Part shown: piece after piece, positions 2,735 to 60,554 of the stretch
How positions within the stretch are numbered: the first letter of the stretch is position 1
How the letters are laid out: every line of letters begins with the position of its first letter
NCBI GenBank assembly: GCA_022447205.1
Contig: JAKVBQ010000017.1
Location: 1 to 60,554 of the forward strand
From: Phycisphaerales bacterium
Lineage (GTDB): Bacteria > Planctomycetota > Phycisphaerae > Phycisphaerales > SM1A02
Length of the DNA stretch: 60,554 nucleotides
Direction: 5' to 3'
Made by a program: the position numbers and the translations under genes
The notes under the pieces: generated by a model
The model's database searches: none
The model's input: only the letters and a program-made list of their open reading frames with translations
Told to the model about the DNA's origin: nothing

Positions 2735-5050
2735 ATGCGCACATTCACTCGACAAGCCATGATCGCCATCGCCAGCGCCAGCATCCTCCCGACGATTGCG
2801 GTCGGAGACGAAGCTCCGAGAATCCATCTCACCGGGCACCTCGCCGAGAAGTCCGAGTTGCAGATTCCCGGCGTCGCCAGCCACGAGCTCGTCGAGATCG
2901 ACTGTCCGAAGGAACTGGCAGCACGCACCACGGTGGTGGTCCCGATCGACGGAATCGATCGAACCCTCGAGCTTTACAGGTACTCCCTTCGAGCGGCTGA
3001 CTTCGAACTGCTCGTCCACGATGGCGTGCAGTTGAACCTGGTGGAGGCTCCTCCGCACCGGACCTACCGAGGCACCGTTCGAGACATGCCCGGCTCGTCG
3101 GTCAGGGCGACGATCCTCGAGAATGGGCTCGGCGCCCGCATCACGCTGGGGCAGGGTCTTGGGGACCGATGGGTCCAGCCGATCAGCACACTCGAGTCCG
3201 ACGGAATCATGCCCCCCGAAGGCTCCACCGAAGAGACGCATGTCGTCATGACCGGTGTCAAGAGCGCCTTCATCGACGGGCATCGATGCGGCAACGACCT
3301 GTATGACCTGGGCACACCCGACCAGCCCACGGATGGTGGTCTCGCCGGCGACGTCAGCGGCAACCGACTCAATTCGATCGCTGCGTGCGCGGACTACGAG
3401 TTCTTCCAGAAGAACGGCTCGAACGTCGACAACACCTTGAGCGACATCGAGACGATGATCAACTTCTACGAATCGATCTACGAGGACGACACCTCCGACG
3501 GAGGCGTGAACCTCAACTTCGAATTCTCGGCAGCGATCATCCATGCGAGTTCAAACGACCCGTACAGCTCGAGCTCGGCTGATGGCATACTCTGCGAATT
3601 CAGGAACGAATGGAACTCGGGCGAGGAGACCAGCATTCGAAGGGATGTCGCCCAGATCTACACCGGCAAGAACGTGACCGGAAGCGTCATCGGCCTTGCG
3701 TGGCTGGGCGTGGTCTGCAACCTCCTGGGCAACGACTGCGGGTCGTACGGCAACCTCGCGTACAACATGATCGAGAGCCGCTACGTGAACAATTACGGTT
3801 TGCGCACGTCGCTCGGTGCGCATGAACTCGGGCACAACTACAACGCCCCCCACTGCGACAGCTACAGCGACTGTGAGATCATGTGTTCAGGCAACGGAGC
3901 CTGCGGTTCAGGCACGCCGAACGACTTCAACCCCCAGTCACGCGCCTCGATCTTGGGTCACATCAACAGCCAGAGCTGTGACATCGGTGTCGGCGACCCG
4001 ATCGAACTGCCGTTCCTTGATGAATTCGATTCGATCTCGACGAACACCTGGGTGTTCAACAAGGGGGGTCTCGCAAGCACCAGTGCGGTGGGCGAACCGA
4101 GTCCGAGCCGTTCTCTCCAGCTTGATGCGACCGGTTCGGGCACCTATGACGCCGACGAAATCCGGACACGTTCCATCCAGGCCGCTGGCTACGACCCACT
4201 GTTCGTCAGTTTCCACACCCAGTTCAGGGGCGTCGAAGCCGGCGAGGGTGTCCGAGTCGAATACACGACCGGCAGCTCCGGCGGCTGGCAGGTTCTCGAC
4301 GAGATCCTGAGCACCAGCGGCGGCACGGAATCCTCCTTCACCTTCCATGAATACGAGATGCCCGCATCGGCACAGACCAATCGGTTGAGACTTCGTTTCG
4401 TCTCCATGGTGAACAGTTCAGGCGATGACATCTACATCGACGACCTCTCCATCGGCGACTCGAGCGAGCCGCCCGTGGACCCACCCTCCAACGATGAATG
4501 CGGATCCGCCACGATCCTGACCAGCACCGGCACGATTCCGATCAATCTGAATGGAGCGACCAATTCCGCCGTACCGGGCTGCACCAGCCTCCAGAAGGAC
4601 GTCTGGTATTACTTCGTGACCGGTACCCAGGGCACGGCGACCGTGACCCTGTGCGGCAGCGCTGCCCTCGACTCATCAATGGCCTTGTACACGGGACTTG
4701 CAGGCTGCCCCTACCAGGACTCGCAACTCCTCGAATGCCAGGACGACTCACCGGAGTGCGGCGATGATCCGTACATCCAGTATCAGACCACGGACTATGC
4801 CGCCGTCTACATCAGGATCGGATCGTTCACCGGCGAAACGACGGACCAGGATCTCCTGCTCACCATCTCGATCGAGGAGGACGAGACTCCATGCCCCGGT
4901 GACTTCGATCTCAATGGGCTCGTGGACGGAGCGGACCTCGCCTTCGTGCTCGGCGCCTGGAACACTGCAGACGGTGATGTCAACGACGACGGCAACACGG
5001 ATGGGGCCGACCTCAGCATCGTCCTGGGCAACTGGGGCGGATGCCCCTGA
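2735..5050 (+). CDS. Secreted M12-type (reprolysin-like) zinc metalloprotease with dockerin-like tail
   Basis: 771 residues, exported. Residues 1-24 are a signal peptide ending near AVG. Next comes a propeptide-like domain with TYRGTVRDMPGSSVRA near 110. The catalytic domain carries HELGHNYNAPH at about 363-373, fitting the metzincin HExxHxxGxxH pattern except that Asn replaces the usual Gly. A Met-turn-like EIMCSG follows. Next is a beta-rich region (FLDEFDS onward), then a Cys-containing module starting NDECGSATIL near 588. The C-terminus has two dockerin-like repeats (DFDLNGLVDGADL, DVNDDGNTDGADL). It is a close paralogue of the next gene, evidently a tandem duplication. Likely an extracellular or envelope protease; the substrate is unknown. 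Confidence 0.9.
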   Translation: MRTFTRQAMIAIASASILPTIAVGDEAPRIHLTGHLAEKSELQIPGVASHELVEIDCPKELAARTTVVVPIDGIDRTLELYRYSLRAADFELLVHDGVQLNLVEAPPHRTYRGTVRDMPGSSVRATILENGLGARITLGQGLGDRWVQPISTLESDGIMPPEGSTEETHVVMTGVKSAFIDGHRCGNDLYDLGTPDQPTDGGLAGDVSGNRLNSIAACADYEFFQKNGSNVDNTLSDIETMINFYESIYEDDTSDGGVNLNFEFSAAIIHASSNDPYSSSSADGILCEFRNEWNSGEETSIRRDVAQIYTGKNVTGSVIGLAWLGVVCNLLGNDCGSYGNLAYNMIESRYVNNYGLRTSLGAHELGHNYNAPHCDSYSDCEIMCSGNGACGSGTPNDFNPQSRASILGHINSQSCDIGVGDPIELPFLDEFDSISTNTWVFNKGGLASTSAVGEPSPSRSLQLDATGSGTYDADEIRTRSIQAAGYDPLFVSFHTQFRGVEAGEGVRVEYTTGSSGGWQVLDEILSTSGGTESSFTFHEYEMPASAQTNRLRLRFVSMVNSSGDDIYIDDLSIGDSSEPPVDPPSNDECGSATILTSTGTIPINLNGATNSAVPGCTSLQKDVWYYFVTGTQGTATVTLCGSAALDSSMALYTGLAGCPYQDSQLLECQDDSPECGDDPYIQYQTTDYAAVYIRIGSFTGETTDQDLLLTISIEEDETPCPGDFDLNGLVDGADLAFVLGAWNTADGDVNDDGNTDGADLSIVLGNWGGCP

Positions 5051-5100
5051 CCAGCCATGTGCGGACCAGGCAGGCCTTCGGATCCAATAACGTCCGGAGC

Positions 5101-5129
5101 TTGCCTGAACCATGCCTGGAAGTCATAAA
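5101..5129 (+). promoter_or_regulatory. Possible sigma-70-type promoter
   Basis: TTGCCT (5101-5106) and CATAAA (5124-5129) are spaced by 17 bases in a locally AT-rich stretch ahead of the second metalloprotease. Each box matches consensus at four of six positions. This is sequence resemblance only. Confidence 0.3.
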
Positions 5130-5222
5130 AATCAGAACCGAAAAATCAAAGACACAGGCTTGAGTTAGACTGAATACAGCAAGATGAACTCCTCCAAAGA
5201 GAAAACCCGCCCCAGAGAACGG

Positions 5223-7559
5223 ATGACCGCGATGACCTCGAAGAAGACCACGCTCCTTGCACTCTGTTTTGCAGCCCTTGGCACGATCAACACCACGAGC
5301 CAGGCTGATGACGGACACAGGGTCGCGTTCACGGGCCACCTTGACCAGAAGCAAGGGGACGTCCTCGGGATGGCGGAGCATGATGTTGTCGAGATCCCGC
5401 TGCCAAGGGAACTCGCCGAGCGCACCTCGATCAACGTGCTCGTCGATGGTGCACCGATGGACATCGATCTCTTCAAGTACTCCCTGAGATCACTCGACTT
5501 CAACCTGTTCGTCGCGGACGGAAACCTGATGGTTCCGGCCGATCCCCCCGAGGTGCGGACCTACCGAGGCACCGTTCGAGGACTTCCCGATTCCGATGTC
5601 AGGGCGACACTCGCGGATGATGGCCTCTACGCCAGGATCGACCAGGGCCCCGGCCTGAAGACATGGTGGGTCCAGCCGGTCCACACCATGATCGAGGAAG
5701 GGTTCGTACCTCCTGCAGGGTGGACCGAACGAAGCCATATCGTGATGTCAGGTCCCCACGGGACCTTCCTTCCGGGCTACCAGTGCGGGAATGAACTCAT
5801 CGAAGACGACGGCAGGGGCAACGTCGAAGGTGGCGGAGGTCTTGCCGGGGAAGTCCCGGGCAACAGGCTTCATGCGCTCGCGGCATGCGCCGACTACGAG
5901 TATTTCCAGAAGAACGGGTCGAGTGTCGATGCCACCCTCATCGATCTCGAGATGCTGACGAACTTCTACGAAGCGATCTACGAGAAGGGCCCCGCAGCCG
6001 GTGGCGTGAACCTGAACTTCGAGCTGTCAGGTGCGGTCATTTACGCCACACCAAACGACCCCTACGAAGGCAACGACATCGGCACGATGCTGAACGATTT
6101 CGGGGACGACTGGAACCAGTGCGAAAAGCAGTCGATCTACAGGAACGTCGCAATCCTGCATACCGGCAAGCCGACCGGAAGCACGATCGGACTTGCATGG
6201 GTCAGCGTGGTCTGCTCGAACCCGGGCCTGAGCTACAACGTGTGCCAGTCCCAGTACACGCAGAACATCACCTACCGAACCTCGTTGGGAGCCCACGAAC
6301 TCGGTCACAACTACAGCTCGAGCCACTGCAACTCGGACAGTGATTGCAGGATCATGTGCTCGGGCAACGGCGCGTGCGGGGCTCCGACCAGTTTCGGGGA
6401 GTACGCACAGGAGAGGATCGAGGACTGGATCGCCCAGTACCCATGCGGCTACATCCTTGCCGACGAAGCTCCCCAGATGCCCTTCCTCGACGAATTCATC
6501 CCCGGCGAGTCCGATGGCAACTGGGCCTACTTCGTAGGAGCGGTCTTCGCACAGGACTCGGTGAATCCACCGAGCGGTCCCTACACTCTCCGTCTCTCCG
6601 GAACCCTGGACCCCACCGGAACGGACGAGGAACCGGCATGTCCCAACACCTTCCAGGTGCATGAACTCCGCAGCTGGTCGCTTCCTGCCGGTGGTTACGA
6701 CCCGCTGTTCATCAGCTTCCACACCCAGTTCAGGGGCGTTGATGCAGGCGAAGGTGTCCGAGTCGAATACGTGAACAGCATGGGCAACTGGACCCTCCTC
6801 GACGAGATCATCTCGACGACCGGAGCCGACGAGAACGTGTTCACCCTGCATGAATACGAAATGGGCTTCGATGCGATGAGCGACCAGCTCCGCATTCGAT
6901 TCATCGCCATGGTCGATGAAGAGGATGACTACATCCACATCGATGACCTGTCGATTGGTGACCCCAGCTCACCTCCACCCCCGAACAACGAGTGCGAGAC
7001 GGCGATGTTGGTCACCGCCATGGGCGAGATGCCAATCAGCATCGCTGGAGCGACCACGTCGTACGTCCCCGGCTGCTCGCAGCTGAGGAGGGATGTCTGG
7101 TACTACTACGACTCCGAGACCTACGGGACCTGCACGATCTCGCTCTGCGGCAGTGATGCTCTCGATACGGCTCTCGCCGTCTACAACGGACAGTTCGGGT
7201 GCCCGAACCTCGCCGGTCAGCTCATCTCCTGCACCGATGATCCGCCTCAGGATCTCGAAGACGAATGTGACGATGATCCCCAGATGTCCTTCTCGACCAT
7301 CGAGTACCAGTCGGTCTTCATCCGGGTCGGTTCCTTCGTGGGGCAGGTCACGACGGAGGACCTGGTGCTCAGCATCGAACTCGAACCATTCGTTTCGGAG
7401 TGCCCGGCCGACTACAACGGCGATGGCGTCGTCGATGGCGGCGACCTCAATGCGCTGCTCGGTTCATGGGGCACGCCCGCACGGGACATTGATGGCGACG
7501 GCAACACGGATGGCGCGGATCTCAACATCTTGCTGAGCTCCTGGGGCCCATGCGAATGA
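5223..7559 (+). CDS. Secreted M12-type zinc metalloprotease, paralogue of 2735-5050, dockerin-like tail
   Basis: 778 residues from this start; an in-frame ATG at 5184 would add 13 residues. I chose 5223 because it puts a normal signal peptide (LLALCFAALG core) at the N-terminus and has GAG at -8. Domain order repeats the upstream paralogue: propeptide with TYRGTVRGLPDSDVRA, zinc motif HELGHNYSSSH near 358-368 with Ser instead of the metzincin Gly, Met-turn RIMCSG, beta-rich domain, Cys module from NNECETAM, and two dockerin-like repeats (DYNGDGVVDGGDL, DIDGDGNTDGADL). The catalytic Glu and three His are intact, so activity is expected. A perfect hairpin terminator follows. Confidence 0.88.
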   Translation: MTAMTSKKTTLLALCFAALGTINTTSQADDGHRVAFTGHLDQKQGDVLGMAEHDVVEIPLPRELAERTSINVLVDGAPMDIDLFKYSLRSLDFNLFVADGNLMVPADPPEVRTYRGTVRGLPDSDVRATLADDGLYARIDQGPGLKTWWVQPVHTMIEEGFVPPAGWTERSHIVMSGPHGTFLPGYQCGNELIEDDGRGNVEGGGGLAGEVPGNRLHALAACADYEYFQKNGSSVDATLIDLEMLTNFYEAIYEKGPAAGGVNLNFELSGAVIYATPNDPYEGNDIGTMLNDFGDDWNQCEKQSIYRNVAILHTGKPTGSTIGLAWVSVVCSNPGLSYNVCQSQYTQNITYRTSLGAHELGHNYSSSHCNSDSDCRIMCSGNGACGAPTSFGEYAQERIEDWIAQYPCGYILADEAPQMPFLDEFIPGESDGNWAYFVGAVFAQDSVNPPSGPYTLRLSGTLDPTGTDEEPACPNTFQVHELRSWSLPAGGYDPLFISFHTQFRGVDAGEGVRVEYVNSMGNWTLLDEIISTTGADENVFTLHEYEMGFDAMSDQLRIRFIAMVDEEDDYIHIDDLSIGDPSSPPPPNNECETAMLVTAMGEMPISIAGATTSYVPGCSQLRRDVWYYYDSETYGTCTISLCGSDALDTALAVYNGQFGCPNLAGQLISCTDDPPQDLEDECDDDPQMSFSTIEYQSVFIRVGSFVGQVTTEDLVLSIELEPFVSECPADYNGDGVVDGGDLNALLGSWGTPARDIDGDGNTDGADLNILLSSWGPCE

Positions 7560-57217: not shown

Positions 57218-58540
57218 TCAATCGAGGAAGTCCATCTCCCTCAGTCGTTCCGGAACGTAGACCTCGGTCACGTAGGAGATGTCCTTGGTGATGAGGGCTT
57301 CGACCTCCATCTTGAAGCCGTTCCCGAGCATCTTCTTGATCTCGCGCTGCCAGCCCCGTCGATCCTGGAACCACGGATACTCTGCGATCTGCTTCGCCCT
57401 CGTGCGATCGCGGTCGTTCAGGTCGATCTTCACGTCATCGCTGAGATCACATCGTTCGTAGTCATCCGAACGGATGCCGATGTACTTCGCCTCGGGCACC
57501 GCCATGCGCCGACTCTCGAATGCAAGGTTGATGGAACCCTGCTTGATGACGCTGTAGATGTAATGCCCCCAGGGGTCACAGTCGAGAAGGCAGTAGATCG
57601 GAAGTCCCAGTTCCGCATGAAGTCGGTGCAGCATGCGGCGCACCCCGCGCGGCGGCTGTCCAGATCCCTCGGTCAGGATGCAGTTGTGCTTCTCCCAGAA
57701 ACGGTCCTCGTTGAAGCGACTCCAGACCGTGTCCTTCTCGACATGCAGGACGAAATCCGCCTCGCACTTCCCGAACTGGATGACGTTCGGTTCGCAGATC
57801 GATGGAATCGCGTAGCCACCGGTCCCCATGCGCCGGCAATCGATCTCATCCCCGTTGTCGAACACGGTGATGTTCCCGACCATGGTCCCCCGCTTCTTGG
57901 CGAAGATGTGGAGGTCCTCACGCAGGGTGTCGAGGGTGACCTCGATGTCCTCGAGGATCCCGTCCGATTCCCCCTGGTCGGCGAAGGTCTTCTCCTTGGT
58001 CCCCTCGATCGTGTGGAGGCTCATGTAGTACATGCCGCGGAGACTGAGGGTCTTGCTCGCCTCGACGAGATCCTTGCAGCCCTTGGAGAGCAGGATCGTC
58101 TGCATGAACTTCCTGGCCTGGTTCAGGTTGAACAACTCCCGACGCTGGGTGTTCGACCCCATCTCCAGGATGCGCTCCTTCTTGTTGAACCGCATGTTCG
58201 AGACGGCACGGGTCGGGACGTCGAAGAAGGGATCCTTTCGGGCGAGGCTTCTCGAGACGACGTCTGCGGCAAGCTTCTCGATCCGTTCAAGGGTCTGGAG
58301 ATCCCTCTCTTCACGGCTGATGACCGGCTGGGCGGCCCGTTTCTTGCGGGCCGGTGCCTTGGAGGTCTTCTTCTTGCTGCCGGACTTCCCTGCCGCGGCG
58401 GTCTTCGCCTTCTTCTTGGTGACCTTCTTCCGACCGGTTGCTGTAGCGGAGGCCGCCTTCTCGGTCTTCTTCAGGATCCGACCGGCCTTGCGAACGGTGC
58501 TTCCAGCGGAGGCTTTCTTTCGTGTGGTCTTGCGAGCCAT
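57218..58540 (-). CDS. top6A: DNA topoisomerase VI subunit A (Spo11-like)
   Basis: 440 residues. Type IIB topoisomerase subunit that makes double-strand breaks through a tyrosine. Residues 1-70 are a Lys/Ala/Ser-rich tail like histone H1 (MARKTTRKKA, TGRKKVTKKKAKTAAA). The winged-helix/5Y-CAP domain carries LSLRGMYYMSLH with Tyr171 and Tyr172, the second being the likely nucleophile. The Toprim domain has LHVEKDTVW (Glu268) and LLDCDPWGHYIYS (Asp320, Asp322), the metal-binding acidic residues. The protein is complete. It follows top6B with a 3-base gap. Confidence 0.93.
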   Translation of the reverse strand: MARKTTRKKASAGSTVRKAGRILKKTEKAASATATGRKKVTKKKAKTAAAGKSGSKKKTSKAPARKKRAAQPVISREERDLQTLERIEKLAADVVSRSLARKDPFFDVPTRAVSNMRFNKKERILEMGSNTQRRELFNLNQARKFMQTILLSKGCKDLVEASKTLSLRGMYYMSLHTIEGTKEKTFADQGESDGILEDIEVTLDTLREDLHIFAKKRGTMVGNITVFDNGDEIDCRRMGTGGYAIPSICEPNVIQFGKCEADFVLHVEKDTVWSRFNEDRFWEKHNCILTEGSGQPPRGVRRMLHRLHAELGLPIYCLLDCDPWGHYIYSVIKQGSINLAFESRRMAVPEAKYIGIRSDDYERCDLSDDVKIDLNDRDRTRAKQIAEYPWFQDRRGWQREIKKMLGNGFKMEVEALITKDISYVTEVYVPERLREMDFLD

Positions 58541-58543
58541 GGG

Positions 58544-60394
58544 TCACTTCCTCCGGGTTCGCTTGGCACGTGTGCGAGAGGCTCCCGCCTTCTTGCGTGA
58601 AGTCCGCGAAGCAGCCGAGGATCCGGTTGAAGCGGAAGCTGCCCCCCCGAAGAGGTCCTCTTCATGTTCACCTTCACCGGGACGAGCCTCGTCGAGAATC
58701 ACGACGTCCTCGTCCCGGGCGAGTCGGCTGGATTCCTCGACGACACGGCCCTCGTCATCGAGGACCTGATCGGCTTCGGCGGTCTTCTTCTCTGCAAGGG
58801 CGAGCAGGGCGTCGTACGTGAGCTTCGCATCCGAACCGGTGATCGACTCGCAGCCGCGAGCGATCTCGCCGATATAGCGCTCGAAGACGGAACGGCGATC
58901 GGATTCCCGCCTCATCTTCTGTCGGCGACGGATGTAGGTACCCAGCTTCCGACCGCATTCCTGAAGCGCGAGCTTCATCTCCTTGCGGATCTCATCGTAG
59001 TCAGCGATCGCTTCCTTCGATTCACTGGTGAAGGGGACCCAGACACTGGCCATGTGGATCATGATGACCATCGGGCCGACAGGCACGCTCCCACGAGGCT
59101 GGGTCAGCCCGTAGTTCTTCCAACTCGCCTCGATGGCAGCCTTGAAGGAGCAACAGGCCGATTGCTGATAGAGCAGCGGGACACGATTCGCGAAGCGAAG
59201 GATCCGCGCATGATCATCCCCGGGAAGCGAACCGCCGTAGGCCAGACCGACCTCGATCTGGAACGGATTGCCACGGTAGACCGCGGGTGGCCGGCAGGTC
59301 GCCGTGAAGAACTCGGCCCGAACCTCCTTGAGGAGTCCGGCGAGGAGTGACTTGCTCCCGATCGGAACGAGGCAGTTCGTCGGCGGGGACATGATCCGCA
59401 CCTTCTGGATCGCGTCGTAGAGCTTCTCGGCGTCCTGATGCTCGACCGCCTTGATCCAGGTCCGATCGGTCAACCCGGCCTTCGAGCAGATCTCCTTGGC
59501 GACATTCGGCCCGACCCGGCAGAACTCGTTCTTGAAGAACGCTCCAAGCTTGGTCGACTGGGTCCTCTCCAGCATCTGGATGAGGGTCCCCAGTTCGATG
59601 CCCTTCGGGTGTGGCTTGATCTCGGTGGGTTCGAGCGGAAGTTCATCGACAGCACGAGGGAACTCGATCTCGTTGCTGCTCGGCGTCACGTAGGTGATGC
59701 TGGCATGCGGGTTGGCGATTGCGGTCTGCTCGAGGTACTCGCCGATCGACTGCTTTCCCTTCAGGAAACGACCTTCGAGTTCGATGGACACCTGGGTGCC
59801 ATGACCATCCTTGAAGAGATGATCGACTTCGGGATGTTCGGTCTCGCTCACAACGTCCGCACGATTCTTCGAGGTGTCCATCTTCAGGATCACTTCGTGT
59901 GCGGGCTTGCGACGGCCGGTCTTCGTGATGATGACCACCGGTTGCCCCGTCGTCATCAGCCCGTACATGCCGGCAGCGGAGATGCCGATCCCCTGCTGCC
60001 CACGACTCATCTTCATTCGATGGAACTTCGAGCCGTAGAGAAGCTTTCCAAAGATGTTCTCGATCTGCTTGCGAACGATTCCGGGACCGTTGTCCCGCAC
60101 CGTGATCTTGAACCGAGTCTCGGAGAGTTGCAGGATCTCGACCCGGATGTCGGGAAGCACCTTCGCCTCCTCGCAGGCGTCGAGCGCATTGTCGACGGCC
60201 TCCTTCACCGTGGTCAGCATCGCCTTGCGCGGATTGTCGAAGCCAAGGAGGTGACGGTTCTTCGCGAAGAACTCACTCACCGAGATCTCACGCTGGCGAC
60301 TGGCCATCTGTTCGGCGGACGCACCGCCGGACTTCGAGGCCTTCCTTCTGGTGCTGGACTTCTTGGATGCGGTCACTTCGGCTACAGAACTCAT
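58544..60394 (-). CDS. top6B: DNA topoisomerase VI subunit B
   Basis: 616 residues from the ATG at 60394. ATP-binding GHKL subunit that couples ATP to strand passage. The Bergerat fold has VKEAVDNALDACEEA near 53-67, VRDNGPGI, and KFHRMKMSRGQQGIGISAAGMYG. An H2TH-like helix (VAKEICSKAGL), a transducer domain (GNPFQIEVGLAYGG, PLLYQQSACCSFKAAIE) and a helical clamp (IADYDEIRKEMKLALQECGRK) follow. A long acidic then basic tail ends the protein (DEARPGEGEHEEDLFGG, then RTSRKKAGASRTRAK). Upstream gene of the pair. Confidence 0.93.
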   Translation of the reverse strand: MSSVAEVTASKKSSTRRKASKSGGASAEQMASRQREISVSEFFAKNRHLLGFDNPRKAMLTTVKEAVDNALDACEEAKVLPDIRVEILQLSETRFKITVRDNGPGIVRKQIENIFGKLLYGSKFHRMKMSRGQQGIGISAAGMYGLMTTGQPVVIITKTGRRKPAHEVILKMDTSKNRADVVSETEHPEVDHLFKDGHGTQVSIELEGRFLKGKQSIGEYLEQTAIANPHASITYVTPSSNEIEFPRAVDELPLEPTEIKPHPKGIELGTLIQMLERTQSTKLGAFFKNEFCRVGPNVAKEICSKAGLTDRTWIKAVEHQDAEKLYDAIQKVRIMSPPTNCLVPIGSKSLLAGLLKEVRAEFFTATCRPPAVYRGNPFQIEVGLAYGGSLPGDDHARILRFANRVPLLYQQSACCSFKAAIEASWKNYGLTQPRGSVPVGPMVIMIHMASVWVPFTSESKEAIADYDEIRKEMKLALQECGRKLGTYIRRRQKMRRESDRRSVFERYIGEIARGCESITGSDAKLTYDALLALAEKKTAEADQVLDDEGRVVEESSRLARDEDVVILDEARPGEGEHEEDLFGGAASASTGSSAASRTSRKKAGASRTRAKRTRRK

Positions 60395-60554
60395 GATGGG
60401 GGATCCACTTGCGAACATCCAACCGGGATCCTGCAGCGAAAAGCGTGCCGTACGATCCCCTGCTGGTTGGCGAGTCGCGATCCACCGCATCGAAGGCCCG
60501 ACCTCCGTGCCGAGCGCGACCGGAGATGATGCTACTCGAAGGGGCATTGGCAGG

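Follow-up and report, generated by a model that had tools for sequence, protein, structure and literature searches.

A contig of 60,554 nucleotides from a Phycisphaerales bacterium (JAKVBQ010000017.1, assembly GCA_022447205.1; the whole stretch is referred to below as the window) carries genes for both subunits, Top6A and Top6B, of topoisomerase VI (topo VI). The results described here are best explained, with reasonable confidence, by an enzyme that works beside gyrase and decatenates DNA in the manner of topoisomerase IV (topo IV), that acquired its present form (type I) by a swap of the A subunit, and that bears functional tails. Topo VI would thus be the second type II enzyme of the cell beside gyrase. 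Top6B would take up ATP and shut a clamp on the transported duplex, and Y172 and the Toprim acids of Top6A would cleave and rejoin the other duplex; these activities have been shown for relatives and we infer them for this enzyme. The type I form would combine the Top6B body found throughout the phylum with a Top6A lineage unlike that with which most planctomycetes pair it, and the C-terminal hairpin with which Top6B would grip Top6A would have changed along with Top6A. The features concerned are the following.

57218..58540, minus strand: Top6A, topoisomerase VI subunit A of planctomycete type I, 440 amino acids (open reading frame, Pfam/NCBIfam matches, alignment with Methanosarcina mazei).
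58544..60394, minus strand: Top6B, topoisomerase VI subunit B, 616 amino acids, with GHKL ATPase, H2TH region, transducer, stalk, hairpin and tail.
58325..58540, minus strand: Top6A residues 1-72, basic N-terminal tail rich in Lys, Ala, Ser and Thr, net charge +26 (composition; basic in relatives).
58790..58903, minus strand: Top6B residues 498-535, C-terminal helical hairpin, co-varying with Top6A type and predicted from homology with M. mazei to bind the Top6A winged-helix domain.
58547..58729, minus strand: Top6B residues 556-616, acidic-then-basic tail, mostly predicted to be disordered (composition; predicted local distance difference test, pLDDT).
58643..58657, minus strand: Top6B residues 580-584 (DLFGG), conserved LF short linear motif (motif counts; likeness to the DnaE of the same genome).

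The two frames are uninterrupted and form an intact B-A operon with a gap of three bases. The contig ends at position 60554, and the DNA 5' of Top6B is therefore cut off; the Top6B frame continues open as far as this end, and 60394 is a chosen start. Top6A passes the NCBIfam equivalog cut-off of NF003333, and Top6B passes those of NF003218 and TIGR01052. Pfam gathering scores are exceeded for the Toprim (PF21180), TP6A_N and Topo_VI_alpha families in Top6A and for the transducer (PF09239) and HATPase families in Top6B. A tyrosine pair lies at Top6A residues 171/172, and the catalytic Y172 aligns with Y106 of M. mazei, as expected in a preliminary description of the window made from its letters alone. 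The published M. mazei active site comprises Y106/E202/D254/D256/E342 (PMC13040014), and its alignment with the window places the metal-binding Toprim acids at E268, D320, D322 and E412. In Top6B, the ATP site (N69, DNGPG at 101 and an ATP lid spanning 131-139) and the transducer Lys (K460) are present, and these residues are invariant in an alignment of the window with 29 relatives. The claim of a complete topo VI in a planctomycete was thus borne out, with both subunits intact, family cut-offs passed and active sites aligned; judged from its sequence, the enzyme is a genuine topoisomerase of type IIB (topo VI, A2B2).

Top6B residues 27-514 align continuously with M. mazei 6-489, spanning the H2TH region. 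In an AlphaFold model built with 30 sequences (mean pLDDT 70), residues 268-305 form helices, which together with this alignment mark the H2TH region between the GHKL domain and the transducer; a long stalk helix (466-519) and a further helix (523-542) follow. No globular C-terminal domain is present in this model, in which residues 571-616 have a pLDDT < 50. An immunoglobulin-like C-terminal domain of the gyrase-associated archaeal pattern (PMC9348778) was rejected, given that the model ends in the helices 466-519 and 523-542. The enzyme resembles that of M. mazei (PDB 2q2e; 9o0g and others) in its domain order, catalytic Tyr, Toprim acids, GHKL site and transducer Lys, and the Top6B proteins are about 50% identical, but the Top6A proteins are only about 32% identical, and the modelled Top6B has a mostly disordered acidic-basic tail instead of the immunoglobulin-like domain. 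Conversely, the best-scoring solved Top6A is that of Sulfolobus shibatae (PDB 2zbk; 243 bits, about 40% identity), whereas the Top6B of that species is only about 35% identical.

The draft genome to which the window belongs (95% complete) has one GyrA/ParC gene and one GyrB gene. The first is called GyrA above the NCBIfam cut-off and contains a GyrA-box pattern; the second passes two gyrase B subfamily cut-offs and lies below that of TIGR01059. Neither topo IV nor any further type IIA gene was found in this 95%-complete draft. The preliminary description had left the coexistence of gyrase undecided: gyrase coexists with topo VI, and topo IV is the enzyme that is absent while topo VI is present. 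The presence of topo VI in gyrase-bearing planctomycetes without topo IV is already published: it was reported in 2024 for five families (Anaerohalosphaeraceae, Sedimentisphaeraceae, Lacipirellulaceae, Pirellulaceae and Thermoguttaceae), with a possible role as a substitute decatenase (PMC11302465). Phycisphaerales are not among the families named there, the words "tail" and "lysine" are absent from the main text of that article (supplements aside), and its sections 9, 11 and 14 do not describe the discordance between A and B subunits discussed below. Beyond this coexistence and the lack of topo IV, the findings presented here seem to be new.

A survey of 195 planctomycete genomes, in which type IIA genes were counted as PF00521 matches (GyrA/ParC), detected Top6A in 108 genomes and Top6B in 110, including those 108, so that the earlier wording "scattered in bacteria" is too weak for this phylum. 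GyrA/ParC-family genes were found in 194 of the 195; the remaining genome (G006), with no PF00521 match, is omitted from the contingency table. Topo VI occurs with a single type IIA gene in 99/194 genomes, and 52/194 lack topo VI and have at least two type IIA genes. For the most part, topo VI and an additional type IIA gene thus exclude each other (Fisher p 1e-14 by genome, kinship uncorrected). By majority state of GTDB families, the exclusion has a p value of 0.003 (57/59 families, two mixed families being omitted and that of G006 kept), or 0.002 when the family of G006 is dropped, with no tree correction in either case. The class of the window (29 genomes) includes 24 genomes with topo VI and one type IIA gene and none with topo VI and two or more; without topo VI, four have two or more type IIA genes and one has a single gene. 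All four topo-VI-less genomes with two type IIA genes in this class belong to one family (f4, 4/4). Within families, f18, f29 and f53 agree with the exclusion. In all seven topo-VI-less genomes with two type IIA genes that were examined, one copy has the GyrA box and the other has none, as expected for GyrA plus ParC.

The most likely role of topo VI, on this pattern of gene content, is decatenation in place of topo IV, by which it would unlink replicated chromosomes, and the topo VI of M. mazei has been reported as a preferential decatenase (PMC8837201). Several observations pull the other way. Topo VI accompanies two or more type IIA genes in 11/194 genomes, 32/194 lack topo VI and have just one type IIA gene, family f44 and part of f12 run opposite to the exclusion, and some members of f2, f19 and f31 are likewise without topo VI and limited to one type IIA gene. 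Because of those 32 genomes, the lack of topo IV alone is no proof of replacement. They include one in the order of the window (G117) and, together with the 11 genomes that have both, they favour the view that topo VI is accessory or redundant and that gyrase alone decatenates, as in bacteria without topo IV. This view is rather unlikely in the face of the strong overall exclusion, and of the topo-VI-less family in the order of the window with one GyrA-box and one boxless copy in 4/4 genomes; the topo VI of M. mazei also complements an Escherichia coli parE mutant, an unpublished result mentioned in PMC11302465. As a separate observation, G117 (98% complete) has no topo VI and one GyrA-type gene, and three members of its genus have topo VI; its absence in G117 is either a real loss or a gap.

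Two seemingly unrelated types of Top6A can be distinguished in the phylum. Type I (32 genomes) is 51-100% identical to the Top6A of the window, and the best matches of type II (76 genomes) are 31-37% identical to it. Type I is found in 12 GTDB families and type II in 25, and no family has both. Among four archaeal sequences, type II is nearest to Methanocaldococcus jannaschii (51-60%) and type I to S. shibatae (37-44%). NF003333 is matched above its cut-off by the Top6A of the window and two other type I proteins, and two type II proteins match NF003337 best, below its cut-off. Two bacterial Top6A clusters were already described in 2024 (PMC11302465). A second type IIA gene is present in 0/32 type I genomes and in 11/78 other topo VI genomes.

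The B subunits do not follow this partition. The Top6A of three deep type I genomes (f15, f39 and f56) shares 55.6% identity with Phycisphaerales type I and 34.0% with type II; for their Top6B the corresponding values are 56.0% and 56.7%. Along the Top6B sequence, identity between types lies within about 7 points of that between type II proteins up to residue 484 and then falls. In 43 chosen Top6B (15 type I and 28 type II), the identity of the hairpin (498-535) is 51% within type I, 47% within type II and 17% between types; in the other four regions, identity between types is only 0.8 to 5.4 points below that within type II. The hairpin is closer to its own type in 43/43 proteins. Separate local alignments of sequence pairs agree: for the final 46 residues of the hairpin region, excised using the multiple alignment, the mean score was 32 between types, 119 and 110 within types and 20 for shuffled sequences. 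The hairpin of M. mazei binds the winged-helix domain of Top6A (PMC13040014). The hairpin follows the A type, unlike the Top6B body; the portion of B in contact with A thus tracks A. This suggests a swap of the A subunit accompanied by a corresponding change in the B hairpin. The likeliest history would be that the A gene was swapped together with the 3' end of the B gene, or that this 3' end re-adapted afterwards; with the genes in the order B then A, a single exchange could replace the 3' end of B and the A gene at once.

Tree tests point in the same direction, with reservations. A single clade of planctomycete Top6A was rejected (p 0.0003) with S. shibatae present, and a single clade of planctomycete Top6B was not rejected. 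With S. shibatae omitted, a common stem separates the planctomycete Top6B from M. mazei and Natronorubrum (support 100/99). The following points count against the swap. Without S. shibatae, which the tree tool flagged as a long branch, the test of a single Top6A clade loses significance (p 0.155). In approximately unbiased (AU) tests, the Top6B of type I carriers (p 0.17) and of type II carriers (p 0.079) are each not rejected as one clade. Archaeal sampling is thin, with four Top6A and three Top6B, the latter without Methanococcales and DPANN. Part of the A/B discordance is a matter of rate, because Top6B evolves more slowly than Top6A: planctomycete-M. mazei identities average 32-36% for A and 50% for B. 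A regression of B on A identity, in which pairs between types lie 14.7 points above the line, is given no weight because planctomycete-M. mazei pairs also lie about 8 to 10 points above it. A nested clade of the Top6B of type I carriers in a quick tree (98 in the Shimodaira-Hasegawa-like approximate likelihood ratio test) was discarded, as it was lost in careful trees of the B body.

The greater conservation of B than A and the two AU results leave room for a different history, in which the whole enzyme (A plus B) was acquired twice, separately and from different archaea, and the B bodies are alike through slow evolution. Two bacterial clusters were found in both subunit trees, and at least two transfers inferred, in PMC11302465. 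Two separate entries are at odds with the near-equal identity of deep type I Top6B to both types alongside such unequal identities of Top6A, with the stem shared by planctomycete Top6B and with the hairpin being the sole part of Top6B that follows the A type. They are somewhat unlikely and form a serious rival. We prefer a swap of A, the B hairpin having been replaced or having re-adapted, to two whole-enzyme transfers; it is no more than a preference, because the clade tests of Top6B do not reject and only three archaeal Top6B were available.

The Top6A of the window begins with 72 residues that include 20 K, 7 R and 16 A. Of 198 loci found, 80 were kept for comparison of the tails and 77 had a usable Top6A start (L004, L044 and L062 were omitted because the frame is open at the contig end or has no start). 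The last MA-type start before the core was used or, as a second rule, the longest possible start. The N-terminal extension is net basic in 77/77 relatives under both rules, with a median of 37 residues, a range of 18 to 102 residues by the MA-type rule and a MAK start in 65/77. Because both length and sequence drift, what is conserved is charge rather than sequence. The extensions noted in the preliminary description are thus real, since they are not absent from close homologues, and a start-site artefact was rejected for the A tail on the basis of the 65 MAK starts and of a basic charge that holds under two start rules. Its comparison with histone H1 stands only for the Lys/Ala-rich composition: no linker-histone domain was found in Top6A with Pfam, in which topo VI families are the sole matches, and linker-histone identity was rejected for this reason. 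A parallel is the TopA of Streptomyces and mycobacteria, a type IA enzyme, unlike topo VI. TopA is likewise a topoisomerase with a lysine-rich tail, which raises its processivity, but the tail sits at the C terminus (PMC7398561). By analogy, the basic Top6A tail probably adds a non-specific grip on DNA that would lengthen residence or increase processivity.

The Top6B tail is acidic from 556 to 590 (net -7) and basic from 591 to 616 (net +11). A typical type I tail has a part resembling DDEGKVVDDGG...DDxVII, then an LF motif and then a basic stretch; in an alternative layout, LF sits close to the C-terminal end (among the final seven residues in 30/78). The DDxVII-like part was recovered by a regular expression in 37/80 tails, with a pattern too strict to be useful. 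The LF motif was scored in the window, eight hand-picked loci and the 71 of L003-L082 that have the Top6B C terminus inside the contig. It is present in 78/80 tails, or 77/79 distinct ones (L037 and L107 have one identical tail), compared with 5.1 +/- 2.1 in shuffled tails. The preceding residue is T, S, G, D or N in 76/78, and Gln stands three residues before L in 6/78. One of the two type I tails without LF, that of f56 (L140), ends in QLQMF. Outside this count, SLF is present in f39 (L113/L123, the same gene), and, among the deepest type I families, no LF was found in f43 (L092), f50 (L100) and f15 (L116); f43 and f50 have short A starts only.

Sliding clamps are bound by motifs of the Q-x-x-[LM]-F type. 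The DnaE of this genome has GQEVLFGG at its presumed clamp-binding site, the internal position of which we placed from E. coli, and Top6B has EEDLFGG. Among 14 DnaE sites of the host clade (of 25 loci, those extracted by pattern), L, M or F is followed by F, and Gln is present in 12. The Top6B motif thus resembles that of DNA polymerase III alpha in having a small residue, L or M and then F (EEDLFGG vs QEVLFGG), and differs in its leading Gln (6/78 vs 12/14). Clamp binding by the LF tail is a fair lead, not a result, on this likeness of motifs. The acidic-LF-basic tail probably combines a docking motif with further contact with DNA, and may perhaps dock the enzyme on the replication clamp.

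The tails are not a general trait of planctomycete topo VI, being confined to one of its two types (type I): type II Top6B proteins end at the hairpin or within about 10 residues of it in 28/28 aligned cases. A connection between C-terminal extensions of Top6B and the presence of gyrase has been reported for archaea (PMC9348778). This link does not carry over simply, because GyrA/ParC genes are present in 194/195 genomes and yet all 28 type II Top6B are untailed. The tails might instead be functionless low-complexity drift tolerated at free protein ends, as the variable length of the A tail and the early type I families (f15, f43 and f50 without LF, f43 and f50 with short A starts only) would allow. 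Drift is nonetheless quite improbable, as it does not account for a basic charge kept in 77/77 relatives, nor for LF in 77/79 distinct tails against about five expected, though the position of the motif shifts from before the basic block to the C terminus.

Searches with the Top6A of the window gave no match in 50,697 phage records or in viral contigs, and one type II Top6A has no phage match either; a phage origin was rejected on these grounds. An alignment search with Top6B (phage records were not searched with it) gave two viral loci. The first (L197; IMGVR_UViG_3300028558_000016, a viral contig of 482156 bases) contains at 3971-6797 a complete divergent topo VI, Top6B then Top6A, about 34% (B) and 26% (A) identical to that of the window and near a family-B DNA polymerase gene; it seems to belong to a giant phage that has a topo VI of its own. 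The second (L196; IMGVR_UViG_3300037657_000197, 34.7 kb), is filed as viral but has a planctomycete-like topo VI pair of type I (57% and 56%) and is possibly a misfiled bacterial contig.

Several observations concern individual genomes of the survey. Second Top6A copies in G013, G056 and G102 are 30, 28 and 26% identical to the Top6A of the window. That of G013 (L151, G013:C70:499-1554) has one in-frame TAG and looks like a decaying duplicate. Those of G056 (L152) and G102 (L153), both of family f39, are very divergent Top6A-like genes on another contig, 24-29% identical to the references matched, and could encode a Spo11/MksG-like nuclease. Top6A and Top6B are unlinked in f6, f7, f8 and f56, on different contigs or far apart on one. 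The transducer match is in two pieces in f53 (G089, G129, G188 and G192), f56 (G114) and f39 (G056, G081 and G102), which points to an insertion inside the transducer. Three records titled Singulisphaera sp. GP187 (L026, L029 and L030) have a topo VI like that of Phycisphaerales, and the Top6B of L030 falls within Phycisphaerales in trees; these record names are probably wrong.

A fuller scenario, which is tentative and as a whole rather doubtful, would have a resident Top6B body recruit a foreign Top6A through exchange of the short A-binding hairpin at its 3' end; the hybrid would later have gained a basic tail on A and, on B, a tail whose clamp-binding-like motif tethers to the replisome a decatenase that substitutes for topo IV. 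If the swap of the A subunit is true, it would be a natural exchange of the DNA-cleaving subunit of a type II topoisomerase with retention of the ATPase; it would reveal which small part of Top6B must change along with A, with implications for Spo11 and its B-like partners. Natural contrasts that recur within the phylum also make it possible to ask whether topo VI can stand in for topo IV.

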